The notes beneath the pieces were generated by a model. The model saw only the letters and a program-made list of their open reading frames with translations. It made no database searches and was not told the origin of the DNA. A stretch of 39,676 nt of DNA, from contig CAJJBG010000039.1 of NCBI GenBank assembly GCA_905182345.1, positions 1 through 39,676 on the forward strand, in the 5' to 3' direction. A program made the translations under genes and the position numbers. Origin of the DNA: Pelagibacteraceae bacterium AG-422-B15. Lineage in GTDB: Bacteria > Pseudomonadota > Alphaproteobacteria > Pelagibacterales > AG-422-B15. Shown here one piece after another: positions 4,879 to 26,623 of this stretch (position 1 is its first letter; every line of letters starts with the position of its first letter).

Positions 4879-5424
4879 ATGTTTTATGTTCTACTAATAT
4901 TTAAACTAACTCTTATTTTTCTTACACCAATTATAACATGGCAATATATTTCAAATAAATCTTCTCGTTTTAATAATATGGCTCGGTTTGTTTATATAGT
5001 GTGGGCTTTTGGCATTGCTTTTGTAAGCTATATTCCGCTGTATTCATGGTACCAAAAAAATGAAGTTAATGTGCAACATATGGTGTCACAAAACTTAATA
5101 TTAATATTAATATTAATATTATTTATTCTACCATTTTTATATTTTCTTTTTATTGATAAGCTTTCAAATTATAAAAAAGTAAATCTAGGCATTAATATAC
5201 TTGCTATCATCTTGTTAATTATTAGCACATCAGTTATTGGCTTTATTTCATTCTATAATAATAAAAATTCAATTTCTTTAAATAATATATGTTATCAAAA
5301 TCATAACTTGGATAGCTTACAGTTAGAGTGTTGTTTACGAGCTGAGTATGTATGGAACGAAGGTTTCAGTTTCTCTGAAGATGTTCCAAAAGAATGTAAG
5401 GTATTTATGGATTGGAATAATTAA
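4879..5424 (+). CDS. Unknown four-helix membrane protein
   Basis: A 181-residue protein I do not recognise. It has about four hydrophobic segments (residues about 3-22, 36-56, 72-92 and 103-126). A polar C-terminal tail of some 50 residues contains Cys-rich NICYQN...LECCLRAEY and a final CKVF, four or five cysteines in total. The third helix is encoded by a hexanucleotide repeat giving alternating Leu-Ile. It starts 4 bases after the sugar dehydrogenase and ends 2 bases before the YeiH-like transporter, which implies co-transcription and perhaps a shared membrane role. The codon use is as AT-rich as its neighbours, so there is no sign of recent transfer. Function unknown. Confidence 0.65.
   Translation: MFYVLLIFKLTLIFLTPIITWQYISNKSSRFNNMARFVYIVWAFGIAFVSYIPLYSWYQKNEVNVQHMVSQNLILILILILFILPFLYFLFIDKLSNYKKVNLGINILAIILLIISTSVIGFISFYNNKNSISLNNICYQNHNLDSLQLECCLRAEYVWNEGFSFSEDVPKECKVFMDWNN
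5095..5121 (+). repeat. Hexanucleotide tandem repeat (TTAATA) x4.5, in frame
   Basis: Four perfect copies of TTAATA followed by a partial TTA. They lie in frame inside the unknown membrane protein and encode Leu-Ile repeated, starting at residue 73. Gain or loss of a unit would keep the frame and change helix length by two residues. Confidence 0.9.
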
Positions 5425-15926: not shown

Positions 15927-16702
15927 TCTATCTGACACCAGATAGGAACGTGATCTGATGGACGCTCTAAAGCTCTAAATTTTTTCTCTATCTGACAGTC
16001 TACAAGCCTATCTGCTGCAAAAGGAGAGGCTAATAAGTGATCAATTCTTAGTCCATTATCTTTTTCCCACGAACCTCTTGAATAGTCCCAATAAGTAAAT
16101 TCATACGGCTTTGAATTAAATGTCTTTAAAGAGTCAGTGAGCCCAAGATTAAGTAATTTTCTAAACCTCTTTATTGATTCAGGATGATGCAATGCATCTT
16201 TGTACCACTTAGAAATATCCACAGCATCTTCTGGGGTTGGAATAATATTAAAATCACCACCTAATAAAAAAGTTTCACAATTTTTTACTTTGGTTTCTAC
16301 ATGATTATAAAGTCTATCCATCCATTCTAATTTATATGGAAATTTATCTGTATCTACTGGATTACCATTTGGGAGGTAGATTGTGCTTACTGTAATAGGG
16401 TTATCAATTAAAATTTTTGCTTCTAAATATCTTTTTTGAAGATCATTATCATTTCCTGGCAACTTATCAGCAATTAATTCAATTGGTAACTTGGAAAGTA
16501 TAGCGACACCATTGTATGATTTTTGGCCACTTATGATTACTTCATAGCCTTTGTCTTGAAGGTCTTCTTTTGGAAAAGTCTGATCTTCTGTTTTGGTTTC
16601 TTGTAATAAAATTACATCAGGTTTAACTGAGTCAATTAATTCCAGTAGATGGGGAAGTCTAACTCTAACAGAATTAACGTTCCAACTTACGATTTTAATC
16701 AC
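15923..16702 (-). CDS. xthA: Exodeoxyribonuclease III
   Basis: A 259-residue AP endonuclease/3'-5' exonuclease of the exonuclease III family, for repair of abasic sites. The active-site residues are in place: Asn8 (SWNVNS), Glu35 (LLQETKT), Asp150 and Asn152 (LGGDFNI), and Asp250-His251 (PSDHVPIW). The length is typical. Its start overlaps the stop of erpA by 4 bases (ATGA), so the two form an operon, as in many Alphaproteobacteria. Its 3' end shares 4 bases with ald on the other strand. Confidence 0.95.
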   Translation of the reverse strand: MIKIVSWNVNSVRVRLPHLLELIDSVKPDVILLQETKTEDQTFPKEDLQDKGYEVIISGQKSYNGVAILSKLPIELIADKLPGNDNDLQKRYLEAKILIDNPITVSTIYLPNGNPVDTDKFPYKLEWMDRLYNHVETKVKNCETFLLGGDFNIIPTPEDAVDISKWYKDALHHPESIKRFRKLLNLGLTDSLKTFNSKPYEFTYWDYSRGSWEKDNGLRIDHLLASPFAADRLVDCQIEKKFRALERPSDHVPIWCQID

Positions 16703-22061: not shown

Positions 22062-22742
22062 ATGCCAGAAAAACAAGAAAATAATATAATGGATTTTCCA
22101 ACGGAACATAGAGACAATCTAAGGATTCTTGAGGCCTTGTTATTTGCAGCTAGCGAACCGCTTGATGAAGAAAGTATTAAGGCGAGACTTCCAAGTAAAG
22201 CTGATTTAAGTAAATTAATTAATTTATTGAAAGGACAATACGATAGTCGTGGAGTTAACTTAGTTAAAACGAGTAACAAGTGGAGCTTTAAAACTGCACC
22301 TGACTTATCAGCTATGATGAGAAAGGAAAAGATCGTTCAAAGAAAACTTTCTAAGGCGGCCACTGAAACTTTAGCTATTATCGCTTATCACCAACCTGTA
22401 ACACGGGCAGAAGTTGAAGACATAAGAGGGGTTCAGTTTAGTCCAGGTACGCTTGATGTATTGTTGGAATTAGAATGGGTTAAACCTATCGGAAGAAAGA
22501 AAACCCCAGGTAGTCCTATAATTTATGGTACGACTGAAAAGTTTTTAGTTTATTTTGGAATTGAAAATATCACCGATCTTCCTGGTTTAGAAGAATTAAA
22601 ATCTGCTGGCTTACTTGAAAGTCGTTTACCTACAAGCATTGATATTAAATCCCCCGAAGAAATTGATGAGAGTCAAATTGATCCCTTGGCTGAAGACGAC
22701 ACTTTAGAGGATATGATAGCAGGCAGCATAGAAGATGAGTAA
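22062..22742 (+). CDS. scpB: Segregation and condensation protein B
   Basis: A 226-residue ScpB, a dimer of tandem winged helices that binds ScpA in the SMC condensin complex. Marks are NLRILEALLFAASEPLDEESIKARLP near the start, and KAATETLAIIAYHQPVTRAEVEDIRGV, the most conserved stretch, then LLELEWVKPIGRKKTPGSPIIYGTTEKFL. A long acidic C-terminal tail (about 40 residues) follows and is variable in the family. The next gene starts 14 bases downstream, so the di-haem protein may be read from the same transcript. Confidence 0.94.
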   Translation: MPEKQENNIMDFPTEHRDNLRILEALLFAASEPLDEESIKARLPSKADLSKLINLLKGQYDSRGVNLVKTSNKWSFKTAPDLSAMMRKEKIVQRKLSKAATETLAIIAYHQPVTRAEVEDIRGVQFSPGTLDVLLELEWVKPIGRKKTPGSPIIYGTTEKFLVYFGIENITDLPGLEELKSAGLLESRLPTSIDIKSPEEIDESQIDPLAEDDTLEDMIAGSIEDE

Positions 22743-22756
22743 TATCAAATATAACC

Positions 22757-24241
22757 ATGTCTTTTGGGTATAATTATAATTTTATATTCAAAATATTAGT
22801 TGTATTTATATTGAGCTATAGCTCATTTAACAATATTTTTGCTGATAGTTTTCTAGAAATAGATTTTACTAGAGCAGAACCCCATGAGGCTCTTTCTGCA
22901 GGCGATGGAACTGTTTATATAGATAATAAAAACTCCTTTTCCCTTCCTCTTAAAAATATTGATATAAATAAAAAAATAGATTTTTTTGTAGGTAATAGTT
23001 TGTTTAGAAGAAATTGGGTTGCAGCGCCATCTATAAAAATGTCTAGCGATGGTCTTGGACCATTTTTTAATGGAAGTTCTTGTGAAAGTTGCCATATAAA
23101 TGATGGACGTGGACATCCACCAGGCACATTTATTAATAATAATGATGATACAACTTCAATTGTATTAGCAATAGGTATACCTCCTCAAAATGAATTTCAA
23201 AATGCACAAATATCATCCCTAAGACTTAAGCTAATACCTGATCCAACCTACGGCTCTCAAATAAATGACAATTCAATAGAGGGAATTTTACCAGAAGGAA
23301 GTATAAAATTAGAATATCAATATTTTCCAATTTTACTTGATAACGGTCAACTCGTTACGTTGCGTAAGCCAAATTATACTATAGAAAATTTAAATTATGG
23401 ACCCTTACACTCTGAAATAAGGATTTCAGCTCGTGTTGCTCAGCCAATGATTGGACTTGGGTTAATTGAGCAAATTGATATTAGCGATGTCATCGCAAAT
23501 GAATCTAAACAAAATATTCATCTAAGTAGTATCTCTGGAAAAGTAAGTCATGTTTGGGATGATAGGTTGAACAAAAAATCATACGGCTTATTCGGCTGGA
23601 AGGCATCTCAACCTTCTATAATTAATCAAACTGTAGATGCCTTGCATCATGATATGGGATTATCTAGTAGCCTATACCCAAATGGAAACAACTGCTCAGA
23701 AAAGCAGCATAAATGTAAATCTATGGAAACTGGAAATTCACCAAATCAAAATAACGTTGAGGTTTCTGATGAACAAATTAATTTAATCATTTTTTACCAG
23801 AAACATTTATCAGTCCCAGCGAGAAGAAATGTTGATGGATTAAATATTTTAAGTGGAAAAAAAATATTCTTTGAGTCCGGATGTGCTTCTTGTCATGTTC
23901 AAAAATATAAAACAAAATTTAATGCTAATGATAAATCTGTTTCAGAACAATTAATTTGGCCATATTCAGATTTTTTATTACATGATATGGGGGAAGGACT
24001 AGCGGATGACTTAAGTGAGTACACTGCTAGTGGAAGAGAATGGAGGACAACCCCTTTATGGGGTATAGGATTAACAGAAGCTGTTAATGGCCACACAGCC
24101 CTACTTCATGACGGAAGAGCTAGGAATATTCTTGAAGCTATACTCTGGCATGGAGGAGAATCTAAGAGCTCAAGAGATAAAATAATAAAGCTATCAATTA
24201 AAGAAATTTCACAACTTGTTGATTTTATTGAATCTCTATAA
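22757..24241 (+). CDS. Di-haem DHOR/DUF1111 family protein, periplasmic
   Basis: A 494-residue exported c-type cytochrome of the DHOR (di-haem oxidoreductase, putative peroxidase; DUF1111) family. A signal peptide covers about residues 1-29 (YSSFNNIFA-DS). Two CXXCH haem-attachment sites are present: CESCH at residues 109-113, within GPFFNGSSCESCHINDGRGHPP (positions 101-122), and CASCH at 376-380. SEYTASGREWRTTPLWGIGLTEAVNGHTALLHDGRARNILEAILWHGGE (positions about 415-465) is the strongly conserved C-terminal part. It lies directly before an FTR1 iron permease. DHOR genes recur beside iron uptake genes, so a role as a redox partner for ferrous iron uptake is inferred. The enzyme activity is not established. 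It interrupts the usual scpB-tatA order. Confidence 0.88.
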   Translation: MSFGYNYNFIFKILVVFILSYSSFNNIFADSFLEIDFTRAEPHEALSAGDGTVYIDNKNSFSLPLKNIDINKKIDFFVGNSLFRRNWVAAPSIKMSSDGLGPFFNGSSCESCHINDGRGHPPGTFINNNDDTTSIVLAIGIPPQNEFQNAQISSLRLKLIPDPTYGSQINDNSIEGILPEGSIKLEYQYFPILLDNGQLVTLRKPNYTIENLNYGPLHSEIRISARVAQPMIGLGLIEQIDISDVIANESKQNIHLSSISGKVSHVWDDRLNKKSYGLFGWKASQPSIINQTVDALHHDMGLSSSLYPNGNNCSEKQHKCKSMETGNSPNQNNVEVSDEQINLIIFYQKHLSVPARRNVDGLNILSGKKIFFESGCASCHVQKYKTKFNANDKSVSEQLIWPYSDFLLHDMGEGLADDLSEYTASGREWRTTPLWGIGLTEAVNGHTALLHDGRARNILEAILWHGGESKSSRDKIIKLSIKEISQLVDFIESL

Positions 24242-24262
24242 TACTTTTTATATTTTTTCAAT

Positions 24263-24285
24263 TTGATATTGCAAATCATTATCAA
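24263..24285 (+). promoter_or_regulatory. Fur-like operator upstream of the FTR1 iron permease gene
   Basis: A dyad of TTGATATTG (24263-24271), CAAAT, then CATTATCAA (24277-24285); the arms match at 8 of 9 positions. The inner 19 bases, 24265-24283, agree with the E. coli Fur consensus at 16 of 19 positions by my alignment. It ends 46 bases before the start codon, and TTGCAA/TATATT within and after it could be -35/-10 boxes, so a bound repressor would block transcription. Fur or another Fur-family member (Mur, Irr) is the likely binder. Confidence 0.65.
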
Positions 24286-24331
24286 TTACTATATTTCTTT
24301 GATAATTAGAATTATTATAAGGTAGATATGA

Positions 24332-25237
24332 ATGAATGAGTTTATTATTATATTTCGTGAGACATTAGAGGCATCTTTAATAGTTGGAATTATTTATGTT
24401 TTTTTATCAAAACAAAATAACCACGAGGCAATTAAAAAATTATGGTACGGAGTGTTTGCGGCAATCATAGCAAGTGTTTTTGCTGGATTCATTGCATTCA
24501 ACTCTTTTCAAACGCTAGGAAACACATCTACCAAAGCACTATTTGAAGCAGTGTTCATGTTCATTACAGCAGGGTTAATATGGTATGTAATTTTTTGGCT
24601 TTCAAAAAATGTTAGTAGTAAAGCTGCATTAGAAAACCAAACATCAGTAGCCACTAAATCTACGTGGGGAATTTTCTTTGTAGTCTTTTTTGCTATTTTA
24701 AGGGAAGGATTTGAAACTGCAATGTTCTTAATGGGTAGTTTTTCAATGACTAAAAATTTCTCCTATATTGGGTTTTTTTCTGGAATGATAATTGCAATTT
24801 TTATTGGTTATGGAATATTTTTTCATGGTAGAAAGATTAATATTCGTTCATTTTTTAAAACGACTACCTTACTTTTAGTTTTTCTTGCCTCTGGAATGGT
24901 TGCGTACGGATCACATGAAATTGAAAGTTACCTTGTTAAATCAAAACAACTTAATCTTATCAGTATTGATTCTGTATCTGAAATTGCTCGACCTTGGAAT
25001 ATTCTTATCCCAAAAACAGAGCTCTCATCATCCAACAATAAATTTTTTTATTCTTACAACATAAATGGAAAAGAAAAATATACCCATCTACTTCATGAGA
25101 ATGGAAGGGTTGGAGTCTTCTTAAAAGGCTTTTTTGGATATAATAGTAATCCTAATTATATAGAATTAATTTTATGGCTTTTATCATTAGGTATAGGATT
25201 AAGTTACTGGAGAAAAGTTTACCAAGATGTTAGGTAG
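24332..25237 (+). CDS. FTR1 family ferrous iron permease (EfeU-like)
   Basis: A 301-residue inner-membrane permease of the FTR1/EfeU oxidase-dependent iron transporter family. The two iron-handling REXXE motifs are present: RETLE at residues 9-13 at the start of helix 1, and REGFE at 124-128 in helix 4. About seven transmembrane helices are seen, with a soluble loop of some 60 residues before the last. In yeast FTR1 pairs with a multicopper oxidase and in E. coli EfeU works with EfeO and the haem peroxidase EfeB; here the di-haem DHOR protein upstream is the candidate partner. The start is set by AAGGTAG ahead of the ATG; a closer ATG at 24328 runs into a stop. A Fur-like operator precedes it, so it is likely induced by iron shortage. 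Confidence 0.9.
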   Translation: MNEFIIIFRETLEASLIVGIIYVFLSKQNNHEAIKKLWYGVFAAIIASVFAGFIAFNSFQTLGNTSTKALFEAVFMFITAGLIWYVIFWLSKNVSSKAALENQTSVATKSTWGIFFVVFFAILREGFETAMFLMGSFSMTKNFSYIGFFSGMIIAIFIGYGIFFHGRKINIRSFFKTTTLLLVFLASGMVAYGSHEIESYLVKSKQLNLISIDSVSEIARPWNILIPKTELSSSNNKFFYSYNINGKEKYTHLLHENGRVGVFLKGFFGYNSNPNYIELILWLLSLGIGLSYWRKVYQDVR

Positions 25238-25337: not shown

Positions 25338-25529
25338 ATGGGAAACGTAGGTATTTGGCAAATTTTAGTTATAGTTGCACTTCTAGTAATTCTATTTGGT
25401 AGAGGAAAAATTTCCGAACTAATGGGTGATGTTGCTAAGGGCATAAAAAGCTTTAAAAAAGGCATGTCTGATGATGTGGATAAGCCAGCTTCGATTGACA
25501 AGTCAGACGATACAAACCAAAAAAATTAA
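25338..25529 (+). CDS. tatA: Sec-independent protein translocase TatA
   Basis: A 63-residue TatA, which oligomerises to form the twin-arginine translocation pore for folded proteins. It has the usual short transmembrane helix at residues 6-20 ([15 protein letters not shown]), the hinge [13 protein letters not shown], an amphipathic helix with [10 protein letters not shown], and a charged Asp/Lys-rich tail. A Shine-Dalgarno AGAGG precedes it. It opens the tatA-tatB-tatC-serS-surE run, which is conserved in Alphaproteobacteria. Confidence 0.93.
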
Positions 25530-25550: not shown

Positions 25551-25856
25551 ATGTTACCTGGTGTAGGCGGTTTCGAATATTTGTTTATAGCAATTCTAAT
25601 AATTATATTTGTTGGCCCTAAAGACCTGCCTTCGGTCATTCGAACTTTTGGCAAATACTTTGGGAAATTAAAAAATTTTACTAGAGAATTTAAATCTAGC
25701 ATAAATGAATTTGCTAAGGAATCAGGTGTTGATGATGTTAAGTCTTCTATTGAAAAAGCTAAGCCAATTAACTTAACGGAAGAAATAACAAATTCAATTA
25801 ATGAAACTATAAAAAAAACAACTGACTCAGATAAAATTAATGAGAACGATAAATGA
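25551..25856 (+). CDS. tatB: Sec-independent protein translocase TatB
   Basis: A 101-residue TatB, the subunit that joins TatC in the receptor complex for twin-arginine signal peptides. A single transmembrane helix (FEYLFIAILIIIFVG) is followed by the conserved GPKDLPSVIRTFGKYFGKLKNFTREFKSSINEF (positions about 22-54), then a variable charged tail. This, and the position between tatA and tatC, separates it from a second TatA. A TTTGGAGAA Shine-Dalgarno region lies ahead. The stop overlaps the tatC start (ATGA). Confidence 0.93.
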   Translation: MLPGVGGFEYLFIAILIIIFVGPKDLPSVIRTFGKYFGKLKNFTREFKSSINEFAKESGVDDVKSSIEKAKPINLTEEITNSINETIKKTTDSDKINENDK

Positions 25857-26623
25857 GTCAGGGCGATAACATTTCAAATGAAAACAAATTACCTTTGCTG
25901 GTTCATCTTGTAGAACTTAGAACAAGACTAATTAAGACAATGATAATGATTGCATTTTTTTTTGTAATTTTTTATTTCTTTGCAGATTCAATCTATAATT
26001 TTTTAGTTCAACCTTATGCTAATGCAGTAGCGGGAGAGGAAGGCAGAAGATTAATCTTTACTGCTTTGCACGAAACTTTTTTTACCTACCTTAGGGTTGC
26101 ATTGTTTGCATCACTGTTTGTTTCTTTGCCTTTTTTAATGGTTCAACTTTGGATCTTTGTTGCTCCAGGGCTTTATAAAAATGAAAAGTCTGTAGTCATG
26201 CCTTATCTAATTGCGACTCCATTACTCTTTATTTTGGGGTCAGCTTTGGTTTATTATTTGATTATGCCAATGGCTATAAAGTTCTTTTTATCATTTGAAT
26301 CTATCGGGGGAAATGGTGCACTACCTATTCAGCTTGAGGCAAAAGTTAATGAATATCTGAGCCTTATAATGCGATTAATACTTGCATTTGGTATTTGCTT
26401 TCAGCTACCTGTAGCACTCACATTAATGGCAAGAGTGGGATTAGTATCAGCTAAAAGTCTTAAAAAAAATCGAAAATATATGATTGTAGGTGTTTTTGCA
26501 GTTGCAGCGCTATTAACCCCTCCAGATCCAATATCCCAGATTGGATTAGGAATACCAATTCTCATTCTGTATGAACTATCAATTATTGCAGTAAGCTTTA
26601 TTGAAAAGCCTAAAAATAACTAA
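25853..26623 (+). CDS. tatC: Sec-independent protein translocase TatC
   Basis: A 256-residue, six-helix TatC, the core receptor of the Tat translocase, which binds the twin-arginine signal. Conserved elements are LPLLVHLVELRTRLIKT at the cytoplasmic N-terminus, PYANAVAGEEGRRLIFTALHETFFTYLRVA in the first periplasmic region, PFLMVQLWIFVAPGLYKNE, and FQLPVALTLMARVGLV. The 4-base overlap with tatB indicates coupled translation. Confidence 0.96.
   Translation: MSQGDNISNENKLPLLVHLVELRTRLIKTMIMIAFFFVIFYFFADSIYNFLVQPYANAVAGEEGRRLIFTALHETFFTYLRVALFASLFVSLPFLMVQLWIFVAPGLYKNEKSVVMPYLIATPLLFILGSALVYYLIMPMAIKFFLSFESIGGNGALPIQLEAKVNEYLSLIMRLILAFGICFQLPVALTLMARVGLVSAKSLKKNRKYMIVGVFAVAALLTPPDPISQIGLGIPILILYELSIIAVSFIEKPKNN

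Follow-up and report, generated by a model that had tools for sequence, protein, structure and literature searches.

We analysed a complete contig of 39.7 kb, all of which is called the window here, from a draft genome of 1.2 Mb in 39 contigs that is 98.7% complete and has an estimated contamination of 0.01. The plus strand of the window carries the gene order nagZ-scpA-scpB-DHOR-FTR1-tatA-tatB-tatC-serS-surE, in which the identity of surE and the position of tatA were assigned by sequence comparison. DHOR, encoding a di-haem protein (DUF1111), begins 14 bases downstream of the scpB stop codon, and FTR1, encoding an iron permease, starts 90 bases after the stop codon of DHOR. Both genes lie between scpB (ending at 22742) and tatA (starting at 25338), as the original prediction had it. 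The features of the locus are:

22062 to 22742, plus strand: scpB, native gene bordering the insertion on the left (PF04079, 5.4e-49; identity 71-89% in family relatives)
22757 to 24241, plus strand: DHOR (DUF1111) di-haem protein (PF06537, 5e-84; two CxxCH; hydropathy; tree)
23504 to 23527, plus strand: DHOR codons 250-257, changed acidic loop with D250S, D253N and D257S (alignment of 30 DHORs)
24270 to 24284, plus strand: Fur box of the 7-1-7 type, TGCAAATCATTATCA, between DHOR and FTR1 (15 of 15 pattern positions)
24332 to 25237, plus strand: FTR1 iron permease, at the site of fbpABC (PF03239, 2.4e-37; two REXXE; model; tree)
25338 to 25529, plus strand: tatA, native gene bordering the insertion on the right (translation; identity 67-75% in mapped relatives)
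25551 to 26623, plus strand: tatB and tatC (TIGR01410 and TIGR00945, both above cut-off)

The genes between scpB and tatA represent an insertion, because scpB was directly joined to tatABC in all nine genomes outside the family that were searched for scpB (seven of the same order and two of the same class). The insertion is common to the family: fbpABC occupied the space between scpB and tatA at all 20 relatives' junctions mapped, with DHOR in front in 18 and without it in two. Loci were mapped in 20 of the 40 other DHOR-bearing family genomes, and 18 of these 20 DHOR loci had the order DHOR, FbpA, a permease (537-549 residues), an ATPase (235-241 residues) and then tatABC, among them the three from the window's own genus (G025, G075 and G087). 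Two members of a third genus, G047 and G073, had DHOR elsewhere, apart from iron genes, and no iron gene was recognised by eye among the neighbours of DHOR in G047. G073 and G016, also of the third genus, showed the order scpB-FbpABC-tatA with no DHOR in between, and DHOR was not found in G016 at all. By coordinates, DHOR directly preceded fbpA in 37 of the 39 family genomes having both; the exceptions were G033, with the two genes on two contigs, and G073. FbpA is FutA-like (2.7e-111 to 6g7n, and 3.3e-109 to the iron transport protein FutA1, 2pt1), and Pfam typed the permease and ATPase of the importer as ABC transporter parts only. Among the 11 family genomes lacking DHOR as well as FbpA, the scpB match lay at or near a contig end in two (G085 and G100), was weak and interrupted by stops in G061, and was absent in the other eight, so that loss of DHOR is not established in these genomes.

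Some of the relatives carry further genes inside the importer. In L041 a peroxiredoxin gene (Redoxin, PF08534; 6520-7053) separates FbpA from the permease gene; L043, L045 and L121 have a frame of similar length in the same place, PF08534 having been checked in L041 alone. Three minus-strand frames (198, 744 and 138 residues) separate the same two genes in G004 (L042, 5333-8651).

FbpA was found in 40 of the 53 family genomes and FbpB in all five relatives tried; neither was found in the window's genome, including every contig other than the window. FTR1 was present in one of the 53, the window's genome. The original prediction had placed a two-gene iron module of DHOR and FTR1 within the scpAB-tatABC block; iron-uptake genes do interrupt this block, but the two genes did not behave as one module, DHOR occurring in 41 of the 53 family genomes versus one for FTR1.

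The permease matched the FTR1 domain (PF03239) with 129.2 bits, versus a curated cut-off of 25.3, and had two REXXE motifs, at residues 9 and 124. Its predicted structure had seven long helices (pLDDT 76). A fold search yielded 256 matches with E up to 10, none of them with E<=0.001, and there was no match among PDB sequences; transport, with iron as the ion, is the predicted function. In a tree of 35 FTR1 proteins it grouped with two SAR86 proteins (99/94), inside a group of five SAR86 proteins (99/98); very long branches among the ten outgroup rows leave the root unsure, and the SAR86 grouping is independent of these rows. Identity to the nearest SAR86 proteins was only 66-67%, and the G+C content of the gene was not unusual (0.306 versus 0.334 for the window). 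FTR1 was probably acquired from a SAR86-like gammaproteobacterium. The clade also includes members from Methylophilaceae, Flavobacteriales and OCS116/PS1, and it has therefore probably moved between phyla.

Several observations concern the relatives of this FTR1. The Flavobacteriales members, from another phylum, are L163, L166, L169 and L175, with 54-56% identity. A P19 gene adjoined FTR1 in six of the 24 FTR1-clade loci, all of OCS116/PS1 type, confirmed by Pfam in one and with a broken P19 frame in one of the six; none was found beside FTR1 among the SAR86, other gammaproteobacterial, Methylophilaceae and Flavobacteriales loci of the clade. The OCS116/PS1-type P19 gene (PF10634) is divergent from FTR1 in L120 (8856-9404) and also in L164, L165, L168, L170, L171 and L172, its frame being broken by a stop in L171 (G195). 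L119 and L171 gave a weak imelysin match; checked in L119, it covered 54 residues within an unrelated protein. The gammaproteobacterial loci L153 and L161 have a TonB receptor downstream of FTR1. Contigs of a viral collection gave 54 pattern matches for FTR1, none of them a relative of the window's clade, and nine distant DHORs.

DHOR matched PF06537 with 283 bits (cut-off 22) and is an open frame of 494 residues with CxxCH haem sites at residues 109 and 376. Its N-terminus is hydrophobic, and residues 1-50 contain no twin arginine. The predicted structure was poor (pLDDT 44), a search of PDB sequences with DHOR alone gave no match, and its profile recovered only short stretches of cytochrome c and cytochrome peroxidase (best 1.3e-05). 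A quick tree of 44 DHORs placed those of the family in one clade (SH-aLRT 100), within which the window's DHOR fell with its genus (91), and we read the gene as vertically inherited in the family. Among the 30 class loci with the highest DHOR scores, out of 90 matching genomes, 29 had imelysin next to DHOR and 24 of these had it on both sides; weaker DHORs may differ (nine neighbours were typed with Pfam, and BLAST was run from these). Imelysin was found in none of the 53 family genomes. DHOR is of the imelysin-operon type and was left without imelysin in this family.

The window's DHOR deviated from 29 other DHORs at four near-invariant columns, three of them within one acidic loop. This loop, DPDDxDGDGISG, is not known to define the DHOR family and is presumably similar to a calcium site; it is not conserved here (D250S, D253N and D257S), the aspartates being kept in 29, 29 and 28 of the 29 homologues. 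Identity within the genus was 55-57% for the window's DHOR, versus 65-70% among the others. Decay of the gene is not established, because its divergence is in line with that of fast-evolving neighbours, e.g., tatB and nagZ.

The Fur box between DHOR and FTR1 agreed with the pattern at all 15 positions, where 0.05 such sites are expected per window. Fur boxes of 14-15 of 15 positions preceded fbpA in all 20 relatives' leaders scanned, whereas no Fur site of at least 14 positions was found in the scpB-DHOR gap of the window and of 16 relatives' loci scanned. Since a Fur box precedes FTR1 and none was found between scpB and DHOR, a shared iron response of the two genes is not indicated by these sequences; DHOR may be co-transcribed with scpAB. 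Two other Fur-like sites of 14 of 15 positions were seen in the window, at 5213-5227 and 16437-16451, about one such site per window being expected by chance. The same-genus loci L038, L039 and L040 have two Fur-like boxes, one right after the DHOR stop codon and another closer to fbpA, versus one in the DHOR-FTR1 gap of the window.

Leader alignments bear on the origin of the promoter. Aligned with fbpA leaders, the FTR1 leader reached z 6.8 for G016 and 7.6 for G073, exceeding all 200 shuffles each; z was 3.5-5.0 against same-genus leaders and -0.4 to 3.7 against FTR1-clade leaders. The best of 205 other, unrelated, leaders scored 61 unmasked, versus 73. Masking of the Fur box removed most of this margin: the G016 and G073 leaders then scored 55 and 51, two FTR1-clade leaders scored 51 and 50, and the best of 288 background windows scored 48. 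The native fbp promoter was likely retained before FTR1. A promoter scan was at background (30 found versus 29.0 expected), and the 3' junction showed no retained homology (z at most 1.9).

The original prediction had also reported that EfeO and EfeB were absent from the window and had proposed the di-haem protein as the possible sole redox partner of the permease. The absence extends to the whole genome, 98.7% complete: the models for imelysin/EfeO (PF09375) and EfeB (PF04261) had no match there or in 52 relatives, with controls matched in known genomes, and an EfeUOB system with its partners elsewhere in the genome was discarded. A P19 partner was discarded as well, PF10634 having no match in the window's genome (two of 11 genomes searched matched). 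The partner search covered imelysin/EfeO, EfeB and P19. The proposed pairing of DHOR with FTR1 fared less well, as no linkage of the two was found in relatives, an outcome that the original prediction had itself named as telling against it. Among 385 genomes of the class, 90 had DHOR, 58 had FTR1 (likely an undercount, the query being the window's protein) and 14 had both, with 13.6 expected by chance. By coordinates, the two lay within 10 kb of each other only in the window's genome and in G250; in the latter (G250:C1:46872-52696) they are about 4 kb apart, the DHOR match being of a shorter type with a 412-residue frame. No DHOR was found in the fetched DNA of the 24 FTR1-clade loci, several of which end at contig ends, or in the whole genomes of three OCS116-type members with the nearest alphaproteobacterial FTR1s. 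Given the differing distributions and the lack of linkage in the class, insertion of DHOR and FTR1 as a single module was rejected. DHOR is an unlikely partner of FTR1, and some room for such a partnership is kept because the search for imelysin/EfeO, EfeB and P19 found no other partner of FTR1 in the genome.

We consider an in-place exchange of importers, seen in a single genome of the species, to be probable and the best explanation of the locus. FTR1 stands in for fbpABC, because relatives hold fbpABC at this place and FbpA and FbpB were not found here. The readings set against it differ mainly in the part given to DHOR. In one, the di-haem protein oxidises or reduces iron and passes it on to FTR1, replacing EfeO/EfeB or P19; it draws on the adjacency of the two genes on the same strand, the kept haem sites, the lack of EfeO, EfeB and P19, and the imelysin operons in which DHOR relatives sit, the one of P. 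aeruginosa being described as Fur-regulated in passages of PMC3143127. We find this quite unlikely in view of the linkage in one of 53 family genomes and at chance level in the class, the 24 related FTR1s with no DHOR near them in the fetched DNA, the Fur box before FTR1 only, the lost acidic loop, and the third genus, where DHOR stands apart from the importer and G016 has an importer with no DHOR found. It is likewise improbable that DHOR is a periplasmic enzyme for iron redox, not tied to one transporter, which stayed at the locus through the exchange, served FbpABC in relatives and here, with its altered loop, feeds the acquired FTR1; if true, uptake would rely on two proteins, with no imelysin, DyP peroxidase or P19 involved. 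A broader link of DHOR to iron uptake, for instance by freeing or oxidising periplasmic iron for any importer, with the gene hence kept through the exchange, seems possible though doubtful. DHOR preceded fbpA almost throughout the family and now precedes FTR1, and imelysin adjoins nearly all the best class DHORs; but adjacency at one inherited site is one event and not many, DHOR is apart from iron genes in G047 and G073, and no Fur box was found before it in the window or the 16 relatives' loci.

DHOR could also be decaying after the loss of its partners, FTR1 alone being of importance, as the acidic loop changed at three near-invariant columns and the imelysin-free family might suggest; the long open frame, the kept haem sites and a divergence proportionate to that of tatB and nagZ speak against it, and we hold it to be unlikely. 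A misjoining of a SAR86 gene into the contig, conceivable in a single draft genome of 39 contigs, is very improbable: both borders are gene-precise within one 39.7-kb contig of a genome with a contamination of 0.01, FTR1 is just 66-67% identical to the nearest SAR86 proteins, the Fur box layout of the family precedes it, and FbpA and FbpB were not found in other contigs.

The proposed exchange reads as follows. In the family, a FutA-type ferric ABC importer (fbpABC) under Fur control occupies the site between scpB and tatA, and two genera have an orphan DHOR gene ahead of it. The window's species would have lost fbpABC and has a SAR86-type FTR1 permease at this site, where the former promoter, repressed by Fur, probably still drives it. 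At low iron, Fur would release this promoter and FTR1 would import iron, no dedicated periplasmic partner having been found. DHOR would be an exported di-haem protein of imelysin-operon descent. It would most likely act as a peroxidase-like redox enzyme, independently of whichever importer adjoins it. If this is right, one locus of a streamlined genome has naturally traded a three-gene ferric importer for a foreign permease encoded by a single gene, and the inner-membrane iron importer acts as an exchangeable cassette, probably under the same Fur switch. The importer beside DHOR would have changed while DHOR stayed, which offers a direct test of the role of DHOR.

FTR1 in such genomes is already known. 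Passages of PMC4771312 (Hogle et al. 2016) report FTR1 in HIMB058 and HIMB114, HIMB058 having no ferric ABC importer, and state that Fur boxes precede either type of importer in SAR11; parts of PMC12636525 place ftr1 in one offshore genus only and the ferric system throughout Pelagibacteraceae. Among the open-licence papers searched, no report of an importer exchange between scpB and tatA that left DHOR in place was found, and nothing was found among open-licence papers on DHOR, di-heme and iron together. HIMB058 resembles the window's genome as a SAR11-type genome with FTR1 present, the ferric ABC importer absent and, in that survey, Fur boxes before FTR1; the likeness is by description, and the passages in question make no mention of a one-site exchange, scpB-tatA or DHOR.

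Other systems share single components with the locus. The P19-cFtr1 and FetMP systems, as presented in passages of PMC9174327 and PMC10783030, have an FTR1-type permease in common with the window and differ in their P19, none being found in the window's genome. E. coli EfeUOB shares the FTR1/EfeU permease, the window's FTR1 reaching 169.8 of 255 bits and thus falling below the cut-off of the EfeU model, and differs in EfeO and EfeB, absent here. The imelysin-DUF1111 operon PA4370-PA4373 of P. aeruginosa, in the parts of PMC3143127 drawn upon, has a DHOR/DUF1111 protein like that of the window, whereas its imelysin has no counterpart in the window's family. The efe genes beside tatC in Bacilli (passages of PMC3827258) likewise bring FTR1/efeU next to tat genes, but with imelysin and EfeB, a Tat substrate, neither of which is in the window, where the place would be inherited from fbpABC. 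The FutA-type fbpABC of the family itself shares with FTR1 the site and the Fur box ahead of it, and differs in being a three-gene ABC importer, whereas FTR1 is of a different family and consists of one permease.
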